Assembly (NCBI RefSeq): GCF_900163565.1
Contig: NZ_FUHU01000010.1
Location: 1-64,000, forward strand
DNA: 64,000 bases
Direction: 5' to 3'
From: Agrococcus casei LMG 22410
GTDB taxonomy: Bacteria > Actinomycetota > Actinomycetes > Actinomycetales > Microbacteriaceae
The notes under the pieces were generated by a model. It searched no databases and was not told the origin of the DNA. It worked only from the letters and a program-made list of their open reading frames with translations. Numbering within the stretch: the first letter of the stretch is position 1; each line of letters starts with the position of its first letter. This document shows, one piece after another, positions 5,954-16,994 of the stretch. The position numbers and the translations under genes are program-made.

Positions 5954-8557
5954 GTGGCAGAACTGCTCTACAAGCTCGGCCGCTTCTCCGCGAAGCGCGC
6001 CTGGGTTGTCATCGCCTCATGGCTGATCCTGCTCGGACTGGGCGTGGGTGCATTCCTCGCATTCGGCGGAACACTCGTATCGACGGTGAACATTCCCGGC
6101 ACCGAGACGTCGAAGGTCACCGACAAGCTGGCAGAAGAGATTCCAGACACATCGGGAGCCACCGGCTCGATCGTCTTCCAGACCGAAGACGGCAGCGAGT
6201 TCACGCAGGAGCAGAGGGATGCGCTCGGCACGCTGCTGGCAGACGTTGAAGAACTCGACGGGGTCGAGCAGGGCATCGACCCGTTCGACACGCAGGCGCA
6301 GCTCGAAGACCAGCGCACACAGCTTGAAGACGGTCGCGGCGAGCTCGCCGACGCCCGCGAACAGCTCGACAGCGGTCGCGAAGAGCTCGAAAGCGGTCAG
6401 GAGCAGCTCGACGACGCACGCCAGCAGCTCGAAGACGGACAATCCCAGCTCGACGATGCGAAAGCTCAGGCTGAGGCCGCCGGCATCGACCCCGCGATGG
6501 TGCCTGAACTCGCAGCTCAGCAGGAGCAGCTCGACCAGGGGCTCGCTGAGCTCGAGTCGCAGCAGGAGCAACTTGACCAGGGCCTCAAGGAGATCGAAGA
6601 CGGCGAAGCCGACTACGAGACAGGACTGCAGCAGCTCGAAGACGGCAGCGCACTGCTCGACCTCGCCTCCGAGATCCGTCAGGTATCTGAAGACGGATCC
6701 ACAGCAGTCGGCTCGGTCATGTTCACCGACTCGCTCTTTGACATCACTCCCGAGACCAAGGAACCCGTTGTCGAGATGATCGAGAACGGTCTTCCCGAGG
6801 GCGTCACCGCTGAGTTCTCGAACGAGCTCACGATGGCGATCCCTGAAATCCTCGGTCCGGGTGAGGCAGTCGGCGTGGTCATCGCCCTCATCGCCCTGCT
6901 GGTGCTGATGCGCGCGATCCTCCCCGCAGTGGTGCCCATCCTCTCGGCAATCGTCGGAGTCGGCATCGGCACGACCGCAGCGCTCGCACTCTCTGGAACC
7001 ATCGAGATGATGTCGGTCACACCGGTGCTCGGCGTCATGCTTGGGCTGGCAGTAGGCATCGACTACTCGCTGTTCATCATCAACCGCCACCGAAAGCAGC
7101 TGAAGGACGGCTACGACCTGCACGAGTCGATCGGCCTCGCCAACGGCACTTCGGGCAACGCAGTCGTCTTCGCCGGTGCGACCGTTCTGGTGGCATTGCT
7201 TGCCCTCAACGTGTCAGGCATCGGGTTCCTCGGCCTGATGGGCAACGTCGGCGCACTCTGCGTCGCAGTGGCCGTGCTCATCGCAATCACCCTCACCCCG
7301 GCCATCATGGGACTGATCGGGATTCGCGCACTCAGCCGCAAGGAGCGTCGCGCAGTCGAGGCGGGCACCATCGAACGCGTGTCGTCGGCTTCGGTGAAGC
7401 CGATGCGCACCGGCCGCGCCGTGCTCACAGGCGTGCTCAGCGTCATCCTACTGCTGGTCATCGCGATCCCAGCGCTCTCCATGCGCCTCGGTATGCCCAC
7501 TGGCGCAGCCGAGCCCGCAGACTCGACGCAGTACAAGGCGTACACGGCAATTGACGAGAACTTCGGCGCCGGCATGAACGGCACGCTGTTGGTCGTGGCC
7601 GATACCCATGAAGCGGTGAGCGACGACGACCTGGTATCGCAGCAACTCGAGATCGCGCAGCAGCTCGGCGACCTCGACGACGTGCGCGCAGTCGCACCGA
7701 TCGCCACCAACGACGACCAGTCGGTCATCGCCTTCCAGGTGATTCCTGAAGAGGGGCCGTCGGCAGAGTCGACCGAGCAGCTCGTGCACACGCTGCGAGA
7801 CATGTCGCCGCTCGACGGTGACATCGAGATCGGCGTCGCTGGCACAGCAAGCGGCAACATCGATGTGTCAGAGAAGCTGGCGGATGCGCTTCCCGGCTAC
7901 CTGGCACTGGTCGTGGGGCTCTCGTTCGTGATCATGGTGTTCGTGTTCCGCTCGCTGCTGGTGCCGCTGACTGCGACGATCGGATTCATCTTGTCGCTGT
8001 TCGCATCGTTCGGCGCCATCACCGCGATTTATCAGTGGGGCTGGCTGGCGGATCTGTTCGGGGTGCACGCTCCTGGCCCGGTGCTGAGCTTCCTGCCGAC
8101 GATCCTCATCGGTATCCTCTTCGGACTCGCGATGGACTACCAGCTGTTCGTCGCATCCGGAATGCGTGAGGCGTACGCCCACGGCAACGACGCACGCAAG
8201 TCGGTGCAGCTGGGCTTGCGCAACGGACGCGCTGTCGTGATCACCGCGGCGATCATCATGATCTCGGTCTTCGGCGCGTTCATCTTCAGCGATGCGTCGA
8301 TGATCAAGCCCATGGGCTTCGGTCTCGCGGTCGGTGTGCTGTTCGACGCCTTCGTGGTGCGACTGCTGCTGATTCCGGCGGTCATGCACCTGCTGGGCAA
8401 GTCAGCCTGGTGGATTCCGAAGTGGCTCGACCGCATCCTGCCGAACGTCGACGTCGAGGGAGCAAAGCTCGAGCTGCGCCACCCCGGCACCGGTCCGGTC
8501 GAGACTGTGGATTCTGAGGATGGCGAGAAGGCAGACACAGCCGACGCGAAGAGTTGA
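5954..8557 (+). CDS. MMPL/RND family transporter with extracytoplasmic coiled coil
   Basis: The 867-residue protein is an RND-type exporter of the MMPL group with two sets of six membrane helices. The first helix lies at about 16-38 (WVVIASWLILLGLGVGAFL); motifs GLAVGIDYSLFIINRHR (near 370) and GLAMDYQLFVASGMREAY (near 720) match the conserved proton-relay/cytoplasmic loop regions of MMPL proteins. Between residues 110 and 235 the first external loop holds many heptad-like units (QLEDGR, QLDSGREELESGQ, QLDDARQQ) that should form a long coiled coil. It probably exports a lipid or hydrophobic compound and is controlled by the upstream TetR. The start is GTG 5954, behind AGAAAGAGA. Confidence 0.92.
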   Translation: MAELLYKLGRFSAKRAWVVIASWLILLGLGVGAFLAFGGTLVSTVNIPGTETSKVTDKLAEEIPDTSGATGSIVFQTEDGSEFTQEQRDALGTLLADVEELDGVEQGIDPFDTQAQLEDQRTQLEDGRGELADAREQLDSGREELESGQEQLDDARQQLEDGQSQLDDAKAQAEAAGIDPAMVPELAAQQEQLDQGLAELESQQEQLDQGLKEIEDGEADYETGLQQLEDGSALLDLASEIRQVSEDGSTAVGSVMFTDSLFDITPETKEPVVEMIENGLPEGVTAEFSNELTMAIPEILGPGEAVGVVIALIALLVLMRAILPAVVPILSAIVGVGIGTTAALALSGTIEMMSVTPVLGVMLGLAVGIDYSLFIINRHRKQLKDGYDLHESIGLANGTSGNAVVFAGATVLVALLALNVSGIGFLGLMGNVGALCVAVAVLIAITLTPAIMGLIGIRALSRKERRAVEAGTIERVSSASVKPMRTGRAVLTGVLSVILLLVIAIPALSMRLGMPTGAAEPADSTQYKAYTAIDENFGAGMNGTLLVVADTHEAVSDDDLVSQQLEIAQQLGDLDDVRAVAPIATNDDQSVIAFQVIPEEGPSAESTEQLVHTLRDMSPLDGDIEIGVAGTASGNIDVSEKLADALPGYLALVVGLSFVIMVFVFRSLLVPLTATIGFILSLFASFGAITAIYQWGWLADLFGVHAPGPVLSFLPTILIGILFGLAMDYQLFVASGMREAYAHGNDARKSVQLGLRNGRAVVITAAIIMISVFGAFIFSDASMIKPMGFGLAVGVLFDAFVVRLLLIPAVMHLLGKSAWWIPKWLDRILPNVDVEGAKLELRHPGTGPVETVDSEDGEKADTADAKS

Positions 8558-8560
8558 CCG

Positions 8561-8585
8561 GCTGCAACTCCAAAAGGAGTTCAGC
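8561..8585 (+). terminator. Hairpin after the MMPL gene
   Basis: AACTCC at 8566-8571 and GGAGTT at 8576-8581 pair around AAAA, and flanking GCTG/CAGC (8561-8564, 8582-8585) can extend the stem with one bulged base. No U-tract follows. It lies between convergent genes. Confidence 0.35.
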
Positions 8586-8611
8586 AGGACGACGGATGCG
8601 CTGTGCGGGTT

Positions 8612-9460
8612 CTAGAACTCCTCGTGCGTCGCCGGGTCCCACTCGGGATGCACGGGCTTTGCCAGCGTGGCGACGCTCGCGAAGTCCTGCTCGGTCAGGT
8701 CGAAGCCGAACACATCGAGGTTCTGCTTCTGTCGTTCAGGGCTGCTCGACCGGGGGATCGGCAGGATGCCCTGCTGGGTGTGCCAGCGCAGCATCGCCTG
8801 TCCGAAGCTGACGCCGTGCTCTTCGGCGATGACGCCGAACACCTGGCGAGTGTCGTCACCCAGGCCGTGCAGACCGCCGATAGGACTCCACGCCTGGGTG
8901 AGCACACCCATCCGCTCGTGCTCTGCACGCCATTCGTCGCGCGGCAGATCGGGTGAGACCTGAATCTGGTTGAGAGCAGGCGTCACGCCTGTCTCGTCGA
9001 TGACCCGCTGCAGGTGCTCGGGCATGAAGTTCGACGTGCCGACCGACCGCAGCTGGCCATCAGCCCTGGCGTCGATCATGGCCCTGAACGACTCGACGTA
9101 CTTGTCGATGCGCGGCAGCGGCCAGTGGATCACGTAGAGGTCGATCTGCTCGAGGCCGAGGCGCTCGAGCGACCCTTCGATCGAGCGCCTTGTCTCGTCG
9201 TAGCCGTGATCGCGACCGGGCAGCTTCGTCTGCAGCGTGATCTCGTCGCGGCGCACGGCACCCGACTGCACGGCATCGCGAATCGCGCGGCCGACAGGCT
9301 CTTCGTTGTCGTAGCGCATCGCGGTGTCGAACAGGCGATAGCCCATCGCGATCGCACTGGTCACCGCGTTGTACGCATCGTCGCCGAGCAATTCGGCAGT
9401 GCCGAAGCCGACAGCGGGAATCTCGAAGTCGTCGTTGAGTCGATATACGGGAATGCTCAT
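8612..9460 (-). CDS. Aldo/keto reductase
   Basis: This 282-residue NADPH-dependent oxidoreductase has the AKR TIM-barrel signature. The catalytic tetrad is visible as Asp45 (YRLFDTA), Tyr50 (MRYDNEE), Lys79 (LQTKLPG) and His112 (VIHWPL). The cofactor-binding C-terminal segment IPRSSSPERQKQNLDVF resembles the IPKS...R..EN motif of the 2,5-diketo-D-gluconate reductase group. It should reduce carbonyl compounds in the cytosol; the natural substrate cannot be read from the sequence. ATG 9460 starts MSIPVYRLND. It is nine bases downstream of the DUF418 gene on the same strand, so the two may be co-transcribed. Confidence 0.92.
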   Translation of the reverse strand: MSIPVYRLNDDFEIPAVGFGTAELLGDDAYNAVTSAIAMGYRLFDTAMRYDNEEPVGRAIRDAVQSGAVRRDEITLQTKLPGRDHGYDETRRSIEGSLERLGLEQIDLYVIHWPLPRIDKYVESFRAMIDARADGQLRSVGTSNFMPEHLQRVIDETGVTPALNQIQVSPDLPRDEWRAEHERMGVLTQAWSPIGGLHGLGDDTRQVFGVIAEEHGVSFGQAMLRWHTQQGILPIPRSSSPERQKQNLDVFGFDLTEQDFASVATLAKPVHPEWDPATHEEF

Positions 9461-9469
9461 GCCGCCAGG

Positions 9470-10675
9470 CTATCTGGCAGCAGCATCCGTCCGCTGTCGC
9501 CCGTACGTCAGTCTGCGCAACAGCACCTCAGCCGGGCCGCGAGCGCCGCGCGACTCGAGCAGCACTGCCAGCAGCACCGAGACGATCCAGACGAGCACTG
9601 CGATCCCGAGCGCCCCTGCAGTGCCAACCGAGCCTCCCAGCCCGAACCCCCACGCCGAGAACAGCGGCGCGAACACCAGCGACTGCAGCAGGTAGAAGGT
9701 TAGCGACCGCTTGCCGACCGCAGCGATCCAAAGCGCGACAGCAGGCGGCGCACTCTGCCAGCGGGCCGCGATCAGCCCAAACAGCGCGACATAGCCGAGC
9801 GCTCCGGCTGCCCCGAGCACGAAGTCGACACCAGAGAACGCCCACGAAGGCAGCCCAAACACCCCAAGATGCGTCAGCGCCGTCGGCATGCCGCCGAGCA
9901 GCCCGACAGGGATGCCGACTACGGCGACGCGCGTCAGCAGACGACGATGACGGGCAGGGTCGTCGAGCACACCGTGACGCGCAGCCAGCCAGCCGAGCAG
10001 AATGCAGAGCGGAACAGCACTGAAGAAGCCCTGCACGACTCCGATCGACGCCCACATCATGAGCCTGCCGCCGATGCTCGCGAGGTAGCTCTCTGTCGCA
10101 ACCGTGAGATCGCGTGAGACGTCCGCAGACTCGAGTGCTCCGGTCGGCATGAATACCGCAGCGGCAATCCCGCCAACCAGACTGAAGACCGCAAACAGCG
10201 CCATGAGACCGGCCAGCACCCACACGCAGATCGTCAGCGTGCGATCGGTGCGATCGAAGAATATGCCGACCAGCACGAGTCCAACCAGTCCGTACGCGCC
10301 GACGATGTCACCCATGAACAGCAGCGCAGCGTGGGGCAAGCCGAACGCTAGCAGCATCGCCCAGTGACGACGTCGCAGCATCCGCCGCACTTCGCGATAC
10401 TCAATGCCGCGCGCAATCCTCGAGCGTGTGAACTGCACCATGCCGTAGCCGAAGAGAAACGCGAAGAGCGGATACGCCCTTCCGTCGACAGCGATCATCA
10501 TGAAGGCTTGCAGCGCCCGGTCGAGCGCCGTGCCATCCAGCGGATGCGCGCCGGCCATGCCGAAGTCGCGTCCGTACAGAAACCAAGACACGTTGGCCAT
10601 CGCGATGAGCAGCAGCATGAACCCGCGAGCGAGATCAGGCGCAAAGGCACGGGCGACGGGTGCAGGAGTGTTCAT
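9470..10675 (-). CDS. DUF418 family membrane protein
   Basis: The 401-residue protein has about ten hydrophobic segments. The N-terminus (PDLARGFMLLLIAMANVSWFL) and the motifs FAFLFGYGMVQF, MLLAFGLPHAALLFMGDIV and VGKRSLTFYLLQSLVFAPLF fit the DUF418 family, which is related to heparan-alpha-glucosaminide acetyltransferase-like membrane acyltransferases. No biochemical role is established for most members. The start was taken at ATG 10675 (MNTPAPVARAF), since the frame upstream is low-complexity and non-membrane. It is divergent from the large secreted protein gene at 10764, with both promoters in the 88-bp gap. Confidence 0.85.
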   Translation of the reverse strand: MNTPAPVARAFAPDLARGFMLLLIAMANVSWFLYGRDFGMAGAHPLDGTALDRALQAFMMIAVDGRAYPLFAFLFGYGMVQFTRSRIARGIEYREVRRMLRRRHWAMLLAFGLPHAALLFMGDIVGAYGLVGLVLVGIFFDRTDRTLTICVWVLAGLMALFAVFSLVGGIAAAVFMPTGALESADVSRDLTVATESYLASIGGRLMMWASIGVVQGFFSAVPLCILLGWLAARHGVLDDPARHRRLLTRVAVVGIPVGLLGGMPTALTHLGVFGLPSWAFSGVDFVLGAAGALGYVALFGLIAARWQSAPPAVALWIAAVGKRSLTFYLLQSLVFAPLFSAWGFGLGGSVGTAGALGIAVLVWIVSVLLAVLLESRGARGPAEVLLRRLTYGRQRTDAAAR

Positions 10676-10763
10676 CACGAGTTCACGTCCCTCGGAGGGT
10701 CTCGACATCTCAACAGAGAATGCTTGGGTCGTCCCATATTCTGCCCCATCAGGAGGATCCACC

Positions 10764-13700
10764 GTGCTTGCATCCGCATCCAAGTGGCGTCGTACAGCGC
10801 AGGTCGCGCTGGCCGGTGCCTTGGCTGTCGGTCTGGCCGCACCGCTGACTGGCATGGCATCGACGGGCGCAGCAGCGCTCACACCGACGCCCGCCCTCGA
10901 CGTGCCGACCGACCAGACATCGCTCGTTCTCAACTACTTCAACGACTTCACGCTCAACAACGTGCGCGACGCCGACGACCCCATCCCCACAAGCACTCGC
11001 GTCTACGTGCAGGATGCAGAAGGCACGCTCTGGAACACCGCAGCAGGCTCGAACGAGCTGGTCGTGTTTCCCGACATGGCACCCGGCGAAGCCAAGATCC
11101 TCTACTCGGGCGGCGCAGTCTCGGGCAAGGTCGCAACCGATGCCGACGGCAACCGCCTCGCGGTCGAGGCAGGTCCAGGCCAGGTCGAGACCCACAAGAT
11201 CGACGAGGAGACCGGCGAGGTCGTCGTCAGCAACCTGAACCTGACGGGCAACTACTACACCGCATCGGTCACCCTCGCAGAGGGCCAGGTCACCGAGCAC
11301 CAGGCCGCCGTCTCGACCACCAAGAGCCAGGCGACCGTCTCGATCGTCGACGCTGAGGGCACCGTCATCGACGCCGACCCGAGCATTGACTTCTCGTTCA
11401 CCAACGGCGCCGCAGAGCTTGCAGCCGAGCGCTGGGCCAACAACTCCCCCGGTCGCTACAACGCGGTCGACGCATCGGGCAGCGCCTCAGGCATCTCAGC
11501 ACCTGCCCTGACCGTGCATGCACCCGAGGGGTACGCGATCCACTCGGCCACCGCATCCGCCGGCAACACGCAGCTGCCCGTCACGACTGACGGCACATCG
11601 GCAACCGTGCAGGCGGCAGACCTGCCCCGTCGCACCGGCACGATCGCCTGGACGGTCGCGTTCACCGAGCAAACTGAGCCGGTCGCCTCGACCGAGCTCA
11701 ACGTTCGATACTGGGCCGACCGCGTCGTCGACGGTGTCTACGACACCTCGGTCACCGACGAGTCCGGGCGCACGGACGAACTGCCCGCCACGAGCGGAAT
11801 CGTCTACGTCATCGACGCAGACGGCGAGTACTGGAGCACCACGGCAGGCGAAGACGGCCTGCTCTCGTTCCCCGGTATCGCAGCCGGCGAGGCGAAGGTG
11901 CTCATGGGTGTGAGCAACGAGCAGATGACGGTGCAGGACGCCGCGTCTGACCGCAACCTGCCTGTGACCCGCGAGCATTACACACACCCCGTGACCTACA
12001 TCGACCCCGCGACGGGCGAGCACCGCGAGTCGCGCGTTGGCGGACAGCTGCTGTTCGAGGGCACCGCATTCGTGGCCGAAGAGGCCGTTGAGGGCGAGAC
12101 CGCTGACTTCCGCACGAGCCTCGTGCGCACCAACGCCGAGATCACGCTCGACGGCGAGGCTGTCGGCAGCGACTACGCATCGGTCGAGTTCGCGAACAAC
12201 GACGAGTGGTTCGCAACCGGCATCGGCGGCAACGGCACCTACATCTACCCGCTGCACGGCACTGACGATAGCCGCGCTCAGTCGCTCGGCGCCCACACAG
12301 TGAGCGTGAAGGTCGAGGCAGCCGAGGGCTATCGAGTCGATTCGGTCACCCCGGCCAACGGCGGCGATGAGATGACCGTCACAGAGGCCAACGGCGTCTA
12401 CACGGTGCAGACGACTGAGCTGACGACAAGCTTCGACATCATCAAGTGGAACATCGTCATCGCAGAGCAGCCCGCAGGCGCCGAGGCGACCGTGCAGTTC
12501 TGGAACGACCGCGTCGTCGACGGCGTCTTCGACACCTCGGTCACCGACGAAGACGGACGCACGGATGCGCCCAGCACCGGATACGTCTACCTGCAGGATG
12601 CAGACGGCAAGTGGTGGAGCACCACCGCTGACGACAACGGCGAGTTCGGCTTCGCAGGCATCGCCGAGGGCGAGGCACGCGTGTTCTTCACACTGTCGAA
12701 CGACCGCGGCACCGTGCAGAACGCCGACGACCAGCACCTGGCTCGCACCACCGAGCCTCGTGGGACGACCGGCGTGACGTACATCAGCCCGTCGACCGGC
12801 GTGCTCATCGAGAACACCCGCATCCCCCAGTCGGGCACCTTCTTCGAGGGCACCGTGACGGCTGGCGCAGATGCTGATGCATTCGAGTTCCGCAGCGCGA
12901 TGGTCATGACCAACGCAACCGTGACTGTCGACGGCGAGACGGCCGACGCCGACCTCGCTGAGGTGTCGTTCTTCAACAACGGCGACGCATTCGAAGCTGT
13001 TCGCAACAGCAGGGGACTGCACTACCCGAAGCAGAGTGCCTCAGAGACGGCACAGCAGGCATTCGGCGCCCACGACTTCGGCCTCTCGGTCGCAGTCGCC
13101 GAAGGCTACGAAGTCGTCTCGATCACCGCATCCGACCGTGACGACGCCGTTGCATTCACCGAGGCAGACGGCACCTACACGGTGTCGACGACCGACCTCG
13201 GCTCGAACTTCGACGTCGTGCGCTGGAACATCGAGATCGCACCCGTGCCGCCGGTCACCGAACTGACCGTGCAGTACTGGAACGACCGCGTCGTCGACGG
13301 CGTCTTCGGTGAGGGCGACCGCCTGAACGACTCGGGCTACGTCTACCTGCAGGATGCAGACGGACAGTGGTTCAGCACGAGCGCCGACGAGAACGGCCAG
13401 TTCACGTTCACCGGCGCAGCCGAGGGCGAGGCGAAGGTGTTCTTCACCCTGGCCAACACCCGCGGCACCGTCCAGAACGCTGACGACCAGCACCTCGCAC
13501 GCACGACCGAGCACGGCGGACAGCCCGTGACCTACGTCGACCCCGCAACGGGCGAGACGACGGATGCGCGCATCCCGTCGTCCACTCCCCTGCTGCAGGG
13601 CACGGCCACAGTGTCAGAGGCTGGCGTCGAGACCGACGTCGAGCAGTTCCGCTCGACGATGATCCACACCAACGCCACCGTGTCGGTCGACGGCGAGACT

Positions 13701-14879
13701 GCGGCTCCCGATGCTGCACAGCTCGTGTTCGCCAACAACGGCGACGTCTTCGAGACCGCATCGAACGCATCCGGCACTCAGTACCCCGTGCACCCCGGTT
13801 CGTCGAGCCAGCAGGCATTCGGCGCACACGCGTTCAGCCTGACGGTCACACCGGCCGCCGGGTACGAGATTGCATCGGTCACTGCCACCAGCAGCGGCAA
13901 GCCGGTCGACCTCGCCGCGTCGGGCAGCACCTACAACGTGCAGACCGAGCCCCTCGGCTCGAGCTTCGCCGTGGTGAGCTGGTCGGTCGAGCTGGTCGAG
14001 ATCCAGACCGAGGCAAGCGTCGAGTTCTGGAGCGACCGCGTCGTCGACGGCGTCTACGACACTTCGGTTCGCGACGTCTACGGATACACGGATGCGCACA
14101 ACACCGGATACGTCTACCTGCGTGATGCAGACGGCAGCTGGTTCAGCACCACGCTGAACGCAGACGGCCTGCACACCTTCACCGGTGTCGCTGCAGGACC
14201 GGCGGATGTGTTCTTCACGGTTCCCGGCGGCGGCGCAACCGTGCAGGGTGCTGACGACCAGCACCTGCCGACGACTCGCGAGCACCGCGGCCAGACCGAT
14301 GTGACCTACATCGATCCGGTCACGGGCGAGCAGACGCCCGGCGGCGTGATCCCCGCGATCGACCTGTACGCAGGAGCCATCACCGTGGCCGAGGCCGGCG
14401 AGAGCTCGGCTGCAGCCGAGTTCCGCAGCTCGACGGTCGAGGTGATCGCCGAGATCACGGGCAAGGGTCGCGGCAAGGCGAGCGTCGCCTTCTTCAACAA
14501 CGACGAGGTCTTCGCAGCCGAGCGCGGCAAGGGCCAGGTCTTCACTCCCGTGAGCGACAGCGGTGACGCCGTCTTCGGCGCCCACACCGTCGGCATCGCG
14601 GTGCAGGTGAAGAAGGGCCACGAGGTCTCGTCGGTCACTGCCGTCAACGCAGGCGTGGGCGTCGAGGTCACCGACCTCGGCAATGGCGTCTACGCAGTGC
14701 AGACCGCCGACCTGAACTCGAGCTTCGACAGCGTCGAGTTCGAGGTCGAGATCGACAAGCAGCGCTCTGGCGGCTTCTTCGGCTGGATCGGCGGTCTCTT
14801 CGAGACCGTCACAGGCTGGCTCGGAGACTTCTTCGGTGACCTGGGCGACTGGCTCGGCCAGTTCTTCGGACGCCGCTGA
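10764..14879 (+). CDS. Large secreted repeat protein (five ~255-residue modules)
   Basis: The 1371-residue product begins at GTG 10764, seven bases after AGGAGG. A Sec signal peptide is clear (WRRTAQVALAGALAVGLAAP, cleavage probably near residue 38). One diverged and four clear modules follow: about 45-310, then 311-573, 574-832, 833-1082 and 1083-1333. Each opens with a beta-rich unit like the SdrD B or CnaB-type fold (FWNDRVVDGVFD ... GYVYLQDADGKWWSTT, then a GEA.V strand). It continues through THE-like LARTTEH, VTYIDPATG, FRS.M..TNA.V, a FGAH strand and S.DV..WNIEI. There is no LPXTG or membrane anchor; the last 35 residues (GGFFGWIGGLFETVTGWLGD...) form an amphipathic, Trp/Phe-rich tail. 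I do not recognise the family; a surface or matrix role is inferred. Confidence 0.9.
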   Translation: MLASASKWRRTAQVALAGALAVGLAAPLTGMASTGAAALTPTPALDVPTDQTSLVLNYFNDFTLNNVRDADDPIPTSTRVYVQDAEGTLWNTAAGSNELVVFPDMAPGEAKILYSGGAVSGKVATDADGNRLAVEAGPGQVETHKIDEETGEVVVSNLNLTGNYYTASVTLAEGQVTEHQAAVSTTKSQATVSIVDAEGTVIDADPSIDFSFTNGAAELAAERWANNSPGRYNAVDASGSASGISAPALTVHAPEGYAIHSATASAGNTQLPVTTDGTSATVQAADLPRRTGTIAWTVAFTEQTEPVASTELNVRYWADRVVDGVYDTSVTDESGRTDELPATSGIVYVIDADGEYWSTTAGEDGLLSFPGIAAGEAKVLMGVSNEQMTVQDAASDRNLPVTREHYTHPVTYIDPATGEHRESRVGGQLLFEGTAFVAEEAVEGETADFRTSLVRTNAEITLDGEAVGSDYASVEFANNDEWFATGIGGNGTYIYPLHGTDDSRAQSLGAHTVSVKVEAAEGYRVDSVTPANGGDEMTVTEANGVYTVQTTELTTSFDIIKWNIVIAEQPAGAEATVQFWNDRVVDGVFDTSVTDEDGRTDAPSTGYVYLQDADGKWWSTTADDNGEFGFAGIAEGEARVFFTLSNDRGTVQNADDQHLARTTEPRGTTGVTYISPSTGVLIENTRIPQSGTFFEGTVTAGADADAFEFRSAMVMTNATVTVDGETADADLAEVSFFNNGDAFEAVRNSRGLHYPKQSASETAQQAFGAHDFGLSVAVAEGYEVVSITASDRDDAVAFTEADGTYTVSTTDLGSNFDVVRWNIEIAPVPPVTELTVQYWNDRVVDGVFGEGDRLNDSGYVYLQDADGQWFSTSADENGQFTFTGAAEGEAKVFFTLANTRGTVQNADDQHLARTTEHGGQPVTYVDPATGETTDARIPSSTPLLQGTATVSEAGVETDVEQFRSTMIHTNATVSVDGETAAPDAAQLVFANNGDVFETASNASGTQYPVHPGSSSQQAFGAHAFSLTVTPAAGYEIASVTATSSGKPVDLAASGSTYNVQTEPLGSSFAVVSWSVELVEIQTEASVEFWSDRVVDGVYDTSVRDVYGYTDAHNTGYVYLRDADGSWFSTTLNADGLHTFTGVAAGPADVFFTVPGGGATVQGADDQHLPTTREHRGQTDVTYIDPVTGEQTPGGVIPAIDLYAGAITVAEAGESSAAAEFRSSTVEVIAEITGKGRGKASVAFFNNDEVFAAERGKGQVFTPVSDSGDAVFGAHTVGIAVQVKKGHEVSSVTAVNAGVGVEVTDLGNGVYAVQTADLNSSFDSVEFEVEIDKQRSGGFFGWIGGLFETVTGWLGDFFGDLGDWLGQFFGRR
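11694..14762 (+). repeat. Four tandem coding repeats of 750-790 bp
   Basis: Module starts are at 11694, 12483, 13260 and 14010, each encoding E-x-x-V-x-(F/Y)-W-x-D-R-V-V-D-G-V. Neighbouring copies share long identical stretches such as GACCGCGTCGTCGACGG and CAGGATGCAGACGG. An earlier, more diverged copy covers roughly 10890-11690. Similar DNA in tandem is prone to recombination and copy-number change. Confidence 0.85.
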
Positions 14880-14896
14880 CTCGTCAGCGCATGACA

Positions 14897-14926
14897 GAAG
14901 GGGGAGCGAATCATCGCTCCCCCTTC
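14897..14926. terminator. Bidirectional rho-independent terminator
   Basis: A perfect 13-bp stem (GAAGGGGGAGCGA / TCGCTCCCCCTTC) closes a four-base loop (ATCA at 14910-14913). It sits between the convergent ends of the secreted repeat protein (14879) and the acyl-CoA oxidase gene (14943), with TTCTT downstream on the + side. Confidence 0.88.
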
Positions 14927-14942
14927 TTCACGCCCCGGGGCT

Positions 14943-16994
14943 TCAGCTGGCGGCAGCCACTTCCTTGGCACGCGCCTTCTCCTCGGCCTTGGCCTTGGCA
15001 CGCAGCTCCTTCTCGGTGACCGGAAGATCGCCCGATTCGCGCAGCTCGCTGTAGTGCGCCATCGCCTCGGCCTGACGCTTTCCTTCGGCCTGCGTTGCGA
15101 TCGGAGCCCGCAGGATGTCGTCGCCGTAGCCAAACGCGTCGACCAGGTCTTCTGCGTGCGGACGGATGCGCTGCAGCAGGCGTTCGATGGTCGAGGTGAC
15201 CGCCTTCGCACGCTGACCCGAGAGCAGCCCGTTCGCCTGGTACCAGCCGGAGTGCGACTCGATCATGGTCATCGCGAACAGGTCGCGAACGTAGGTCATG
15301 ATCTTGCGCGTCGCCTCAGGCATGCGCTCGAGAGCAGCGTTGAAGGCGTTCAGCTGCTGCAGCTCAGCCCATGCGCGAGCAACCTCGAGCAGCTGGTTCT
15401 GCTCGTCATTGAACATCGCAGCGGCCTTGGCCTTGTCATCGCGCGGCGCCTTGCGCAGGCGTCCGGCGATGTCAGCGACCATAACCTCGATGCGATCCTC
15501 GAAGAGCTCGGTCTGCCACTTGGTGTTGCGCAGCTCACGAGCAGCCCTGGCAGGGTTCCCCATGTCATGCATGTCCTGGCGCACGACATGCAGACCGACC
15601 TGCGCCGCAGCACGTCCGGCAAACTCCTTGGCTGCGAACTGTGCCAGCGAAGCGGCAGAAGCACCCTTGAACTGCTTCGAGAAGTCGCCCAGCAGGCGCT
15701 TGCCGACAAGCTGCAGCAGCACCGTGTTGTCGCCCTCGAAGGTCGTGTAGATGTCGAGATCCTCGTACCAGGAGCCGAACCGGTTCTCGCCCATGTAGCC
15801 AGCGCCGCCACAGGCTTCGCGAGCCTCCTGCAGCGTGTCGAGCCCATGCCATGTCGACAGCGACTTCAGACCGGCGGCGAGCGTCTCGAGATCCTCGCGG
15901 CTCTCAGGCGTGTCTTCCGCACCCGAGAAGACACCGTCGAACTTGCGCAGCAGCACCTCGTGCGAATAGCTCATCGCATAGGTCTTCGCGAGACGCGTGA
16001 ACAGACGACGCTGGTGGCTGCGGTAATCGAGCAGCAGCTCTTCCTTCTCGTCGCTCGACTGGTTGAACTGGCGACGCTGCAGCGCATAGCGGATGGCGAT
16101 CGACAGCGCCGCCTTCGACGCCACGACAGCAGAGCCGTCGAGCGAGACGCGACCCTGCACGAGCGTGCCGAGCATCGTGAAGAAGCGACGGCCGGGGCTG
16201 TCGATGGTGCTCGAGTATGTTCCGTCGGCGTCGACAGCGCCGTAGCGGTTCAGGAGGTCGTGGCGCGGGATGCGCACGTTCGTGAACGTGAAGCCTCCGT
16301 TGTCGATGCCGTTCAGGCCGTTCTTGAAGCCGTCGTCGTGTGCGACGATGCCGTCGAGCAGCTCGCCCTCCGGCGTGCGCACGGGCACGTAGAAGGCGTG
16401 CACACCGTGGTTGACGCCCTGGGTGATGAGCTGCGCGAAGACGACAGCGGCCTGACCGTGCAGGGCTGCGTTTCCGAGGAACTCCTTCTTCGCACCCGGG
16501 TACGGCGTGTGGATGACGAACTCCTGCGCATCCGCGTCGTACGTCGCAGTGGTGCCGATGGCCGCAACGTCAGAGCCGTGGCCCTTCTCAGTCATGGCGA
16601 ACGCGCCGGGGATCTTGAAGCTCGCGACATCGGGCAGCAGGCGCTCGTGGTGGTCAGCGGTGCCGAGGTGCAGGATCGCCGCACCGAAGAGGCCGTACTG
16701 CACGCCCGCTTTGATCTGCAGGCTCGGGTCTGCGAGGAAGAGCTCTGCGAACGCGGCGATATTGCCGCCGTGGTTGCTGTCTCCGCCTGCCGACTCCGGG
16801 AACGCTGCGCGCACCGCACCGTCGGCGGCGAGCTCGTGCATCTGACCCATGACGCGGTCTCGGTGGTCTTCCATCGTCTGGTTGAGGATGCGCTGGTATT
16901 TCGGGTCGGCTGCCTTCGCTCGGCCTCCCAGACGTTCATCAGCCCACTTGCCCAGCAAGTCACGGCCGAGCCATTCAACATCTATACGCGACAC
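14943..16994 (-). CDS. Acyl-CoA oxidase/dehydrogenase
   Basis: At 683 residues this flavoprotein has the length and order of peroxisomal-type acyl-CoA oxidases rather than the 380-residue dehydrogenases. Visible features are the FAD/substrate segment GAFAMTEKGHGSDVAAIGT, the RIPRHDLLNRYG region, a central helical domain (GRVSLDGSAVVASKAALSIA) and ACGGAGYMGENRFGSW followed by the catalytic-glutamate motif TTFEGDNTVLLQ near residue 418. The C-terminal third is an oxidase-type helical domain with a charged K/A-rich tail. It would introduce the 2,3-double bond in fatty acyl-CoA during beta-oxidation. The start is GTG 16994 behind GGAGG. Confidence 0.92.
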   Translation of the reverse strand: MSRIDVEWLGRDLLGKWADERLGGRAKAADPKYQRILNQTMEDHRDRVMGQMHELAADGAVRAAFPESAGGDSNHGGNIAAFAELFLADPSLQIKAGVQYGLFGAAILHLGTADHHERLLPDVASFKIPGAFAMTEKGHGSDVAAIGTTATYDADAQEFVIHTPYPGAKKEFLGNAALHGQAAVVFAQLITQGVNHGVHAFYVPVRTPEGELLDGIVAHDDGFKNGLNGIDNGGFTFTNVRIPRHDLLNRYGAVDADGTYSSTIDSPGRRFFTMLGTLVQGRVSLDGSAVVASKAALSIAIRYALQRRQFNQSSDEKEELLLDYRSHQRRLFTRLAKTYAMSYSHEVLLRKFDGVFSGAEDTPESREDLETLAAGLKSLSTWHGLDTLQEAREACGGAGYMGENRFGSWYEDLDIYTTFEGDNTVLLQLVGKRLLGDFSKQFKGASAASLAQFAAKEFAGRAAAQVGLHVVRQDMHDMGNPARAARELRNTKWQTELFEDRIEVMVADIAGRLRKAPRDDKAKAAAMFNDEQNQLLEVARAWAELQQLNAFNAALERMPEATRKIMTYVRDLFAMTMIESHSGWYQANGLLSGQRAKAVTSTIERLLQRIRPHAEDLVDAFGYGDDILRAPIATQAEGKRQAEAMAHYSELRESGDLPVTEKELRAKAKAEEKARAKEVAAAS

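Follow-up and report, generated by a model that had tools for sequence, protein, structure and literature searches.

An exported modular protein of Agrococcus casei lacks a sorting signal and ends in a repeat-built amphipathic tail

The first 64,000 nucleotides of contig NZ_FUHU01000010.1 of Agrococcus casei LMG 22410 (the window) contain a complete gene (10764..14879, + strand) for an exported, modular, Ig-like surface protein without sorting signal, the chain of which ends in an amphipathic helix built from repeats. We propose that this protein is a modular surface stalk that, in place of a sorting signal, relies on non-covalent attachment through a tail helix that binds lipid or a surface, a reading to which we give slightly less than an even chance. 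The signal region would direct Sec export, after which the five modules, each of which is modelled as two Ig-like domains, would form an elongated, rod-like stalk. By analogy with related domains, conserved acidic loops in the first Ig-like domain might serve as Ca2+ sites and thereby make the rod stiffer. The C-terminal amphipathic helix may, again by analogy, fold upon contact with lipid or another hydrophobic surface (candidate targets are the outer membrane face, envelope lipid and an outside surface), and would thereby hold the rod non-covalently where most of the relatives that we read have a LAXTG/LPXTG signal.

Results and Discussion

The gene starts with a GTG at position 10764, is preceded at a distance of 7 nt by a ribosome-binding site read from the sequence (AGGAGG, 10751..10756, +), and encodes 1371 amino acids (10764-14876) followed by the stop codon. 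An earlier examination of the DNA without database searches (the sequence-only reading) had called the protein exported, which agrees with a Sec-type signal region at 10764..10880 (+, end approximate) that we judged by eye to consist of KWRR, a hydrophobic stretch and an Ala-rich region. The protein contains no Cys and a total of 18 Lys.

The tail is an amphipathic 11-residue repeat

The last 39 residues (14760..14876, +), which end in RR, represent the tail; the sequence-only reading had recognized its amphipathic Trp/Phe/Gly character and set its length at 35 residues. Sequence alignment reveals in it three 11-residue repeats on the + strand, FFGWIGGLFET (14775..14807), VTGWLGDFFGD (14808..14840) and LGDWLGQFFGR (14841..14873), which agree with each other at 19-21 of 33 bases per pair at the DNA level. 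The hydrophobic moment of the tail peaks at 98 degrees per residue, i.e. at an 11/3 period, and none of 20,000 shuffles of the tail reached the observed moment at 100 degrees. In a structural model of module 5 together with the tail (mean pLDDT 81.5), a helix was predicted with low confidence at 271-287.

This arrangement resembles the 11-mer (3-11 helix) segments of perilipin 4, apolipoproteins and alpha-synuclein, which share the 11/3 amphipathic periodicity and the tandem 11-residue repeats. Lipid or surface attachment of the tail is proposed by comparison with 3-11 helices (PMC5889406). However, these segments are eukaryotic, whereas the tail described here is bacterial, exported, limited to three repeats and equipped with a bulky aromatic face, and the likeness is thus an analogy and not a homology. 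The more specific idea that the tail might be a new type of non-covalent Gram-positive anchor, i.e. a secreted 3-11 helix of three undecads that takes over from the sortase signal and docks a Ca-stiffened rod on membrane or envelope lipid from outside, is possible but on balance doubtful. In the event of lipid binding, the tail would represent a compact, sortase-free means of displaying proteins on monoderm cells.

The strong one-sided Phe/Trp/Leu face would also suit the main rival, in which the tail is an assembly element and the helices of several chains pack against each other, resulting in released bundles, fibres or matrix instead of lipid binding. The five modules could offer many contacts for such an assembly. 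However, stable coiled coils have a heptad (7/2) periodicity and little Gly, unlike the tail with its 11/3 periodicity and frequent Gly, and we regard self-assembly as rather unlikely.

Most of the relatives read carry a sorting signal that is absent here

As the sequence-only reading had stated, the protein has neither an LPXTG motif nor a lipobox: no L[AP]xTG was found near the C-terminus, and the only LxxTG is an LNLTG at residue 158. A frameshift origin of the tail was considered and dismissed, since the three forward frames over 14700-15100 revealed no hidden sorting signal. The genome itself encodes a sortase, for which a single PF04203 match was found, and which belongs to class E (203.7 bits vs a cut-off of 160), while the class C model scored only 39 bits against the same sortase (cut-off 160). 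LAXTG has been reported as the motif recognised by class E sortases (PMC5148588). The Gram-positive anchor model of Pfam exceeded its cut-off at seven places in the genome; at a loose threshold, this model also matched 13 of 14 control genomes, in two of them above the cut-off. All ten of the 19 anchor matches of the genome that we read end in an LPXTG-like motif, one of them as LPETA.

A profile of the five modules had matches in 20 of the 398 family genomes (own genome included), which represent 12 of 85 genera, with some of the matches being partial. With a profile of 25 rows we detected matches in 8 of 396 genomes of the order, namely the focal genome, two more from its family and five that belong to a different one (three full-length, two partial). 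Altogether, 24 module-bearing frames were read in 25 loci, 21 with at least one full module (at least 180 of 254 positions, a threshold that L050 missed) and three with partial modules only. Since the profile was built from the focal modules and 13 of the frames read, it is no independent test of membership, but the C-termini are independent of it. We conclude that the module is genuine and conserved as a unit.

The C-termini of 14 of the 21 full-module relatives consist of L/M-[AP]xTG, a hydrophobic span and a basic end, and one more ends in LASTD with the same layout, which brings the sorting-signal-like ends to 15 of 21. In two (L036, L039), the C-terminus looks like a membrane span followed by a cytoplasmic tail, and four (L040, L045, L046, L047) have no visible anchor. 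The LAXTG/LPXTG proteins (L032-L035, L038, L041-L044, L048, L054 and L158-L160; from Microbacteriaceae and one further family within the order) resemble the focal protein in that they are exported and carry the full-length module in chains of up to five (L158), but they have the sorting signal that the focal protein lacks. The focal protein is one case in which a covalent sorting signal seems to be replaced by an amphipathic helix.

In the own genome, a search with the tail (E 10) returned only the tail itself, as did a search of 325 genomes of the class (E 0.01), a sample that overlaps the family one. The 398 family genomes yielded 15 matches in 14 other genomes (E 0.1), and on reading all 15 we saw no C-terminal repeat tail; the two that come closest to an end begin 44 and 61 residues away from it and bear no resemblance to the tail. 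A query of 39 residues is weak, and diverged tails could escape it. A DNA pattern of two undecads occurred at two exact places in the 398 genomes, both of them in the focal gene. Allowing one mismatch added ten places in ten other genomes, none of them a repeat tail and one (L167) at the very end of a frame; a backward control pattern had four places, so these ten are not far above background. In the accessible literature on amphipathic C-terminal ends of SdrD-like surface proteins in Microbacteriaceae we found only work on S. aureus, as judged by titles or abstracts, and a literature search on the S-layer protein PS2 returned nothing.

This distribution bears on the rival that ranks after self-assembly, namely that the protein is simply secreted, its tail being a recent, minor C-terminal addition and its sorting signal lost or never there. 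Such a reading is consistent with the four relatives without visible anchor and with the restriction of the tail to the focal gene among the genomes sampled, and of the whole protein to a single one of the 24 genus genomes (E 0.001). We nevertheless consider it unlikely, because the amphipathicity goes far beyond that of shuffles of the same residues and because the tail repeats agree in their pattern.

The modules are predicted tandem Ig-like domains of the SdrD-B/CnaB type

The full module is not covered by any of the four family libraries searched (Pfam, NCBIfam, PADLOC and PHROGs), in line with the sequence-only reading, which had described the modules as being of unrecognised type. The best Pfam match of the whole protein was SdrD_B (PF17210) with 21 bits (E 4e-4), below the gathering cut-off of 29.7, which two of ten relatives scanned exceeded (L041 with 37.4 bits, L048 with 36.8 bits). 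NCBIfam gave nothing useful, PADLOC no match and PHROGs one weak match of unknown function. A sequence search of the PDB returned no match for the protein; the only PDB match to the module profile (E 0.67) was judged to be due to chance.

For structure prediction with AlphaFold2 we used module 3 (mean pLDDT 79.3), while the alignment of tandem modules was out of register and was left out. The model suggests that the module consists of a tandem pair of Ig-like domains, both of the SdrD-B/CnaB type. The region of about 180 residues that could not be placed from the sequence alone would thus complete the first Ig-like domain and form the second one. Matches to the model structure include UafA, SdrD, SpyCEP, CnaB2 and Gram-positive pilins. 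Acidic loop positions are conserved in 21-25 of the 25 rows of the module alignment. Compared with SdrD B-type domains (PF17210; S. aureus SdrD and the 'B region' of S. saprophyticus UafA), the module has in common the modelled Ig-like fold, the D-x3-D-x3-D acidic loop and the tandem arrangement, but it scores below the Pfam cut-off and comprises two domains in about 255 residues; unlike SdrD B-type proteins, the focal protein has no LPXTG, nor does any part of it match a ligand-binding region in sequence. The SdrD B domains bind three Ca2+, which gives them mechanical strength (PMC6232131).

Since the top Foldseek rows are mostly T-antigen pilins, a pilus subunit or pilus-associated protein was also considered. 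However, the TM-scores of these rows, about 0.2-0.3, indicate a shared domain type at most. Among the columns filled in module 3, none has Lys in at least 40% of the 25 rows, and there is therefore no conserved isopeptide of the Lys-Asn/Asp type known from CnaB. Together with the missing sorting signal and a sole detected sortase of class E that scores far below the class C cut-off, this makes a pilus role very improbable.

The modules are old duplicates

The protein contains five modules of 250-263 residues, as the sequence-only reading had proposed (about 255), on the + strand: module 1 (10908..11690, 261 residues), module 2 (11691..12479, 263 residues), module 3 (12480..13256, 259 residues), module 4 (13257..14006, 250 residues) and module 5 (14007..14759, 251 residues). 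The opening W.DRVVDGV ascribed to every module holds for modules 2-5, while module 1 has YFNDFTLNNV. Module 1 is divergent (22-27% amino acid identity to the others), whereas modules 2-5 share 43-55% amino acid and 57-67% nucleotide identity in pairwise comparison; from this divergence we conclude that the modules are old duplicates. The long DNA identities previously ascribed to modules 2-5 were overstated, since the longest exact run common to two modules is 32 nt (modules 3 and 4). A recent change in copy number, suspected on that basis, is therefore not indicated. In a tree of 38 rows, a branch with a support of 92/89 has all five focal modules on the same side, which puts their repetition beyond chance and fits duplication inside one protein lineage; module 1 forms a long branch, and its placement is less certain.

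Module-bearing proteins of other genomes

The sequence-only reading had seen an undescribed surface or matrix protein. While none of the libraries indeed covers the complete module, it recurs in sortase-anchored proteins, and the focal protein is thus better described as a variant surface or stalk protein with the tail as its unusual part. The two-domain module is used in repeated form as a stalk, but also downstream of the nuclease part in secreted nucleases: in an NCBIfam scan of six relatives, three turned out to be ExeM/NucH endonucleases (L032, L043, L054). In these, the module lies between the endonuclease and the LAXTG signal, and they are presumably wall-anchored extracellular nucleases; L033-L035 resemble them in length and module position. 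The proteins of the second family of the order (L158-L160) have 2-5 modules per chain, long acidic stalks rich in Pro/Ser or Pro/Thr, and LPRTG/MPRTG ends. One relative with a single module (L040, frame 8262-9902, - strand) ends in CKNGGW...FKNQGQCVS, which may be a C-terminal motif of other actinobacterial secreted proteins.

A direct protein search of genome contigs revealed no relative, and an alignment-based contig scan gave three matches, two of which are the contigs of G182 and G311 (not recounted). Plasmids, phages and viral contigs gave no match.

Within the genus, the 25-row profile (E 1) matched 9 of 24 genomes: the own genome, three with giant SdrD_B-repeat LPXTG proteins (G006, G007, G013) and five with weak partial matches. 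Three of the latter (L111-L113) were read as acyltransferase-like or noise frames and judged to be due to chance; the other two are in G009 and G014. The giant SdrD_B-like repeat proteins of three congeners (L108, L109, L110) have frames of about 2,830-3,400 amino acids and LPRTG or LPQTG ends.

Genomic context

The neighbours of the gene are a divergent DUF418 gene on one side and a convergent acyl-CoA oxidase gene on the other. Among the 24 genus genomes, 20 (own included) yielded a DUF418 relative. Two of the 19 other DUF418 loci (G011 and G022, in genomes of near relatives that are 78% and 86% complete) keep the order MMPL, aldo-keto reductase, DUF418, acyl-CoA oxidase and EamA without the focal gene, and the DUF418 and oxidase matches are about 275 and 360 bases apart; in the other 17 loci, some of which are short, DUF418 was the only one of 12 window genes compared that gave a match. 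With the same neighbours kept in its absence, the comparison of gene order indicates that the site varies by the presence or absence of this one gene, with gain and loss being indistinguishable. Base composition was uninformative with regard to horizontal acquisition, since the G+C content along the gene (0.64-0.68) is close to that of the whole window (0.652).

Between the convergent genes lies an inverted repeat with perfectly matching 14-bp arms, a loop of 4 nt and no long T run (14896..14927). A consensus scanner did not list this hairpin; the region 14885-14940 folds with -33.2 kcal/mol (z -5.86), and the hairpin is likely to act as a two-way terminator.
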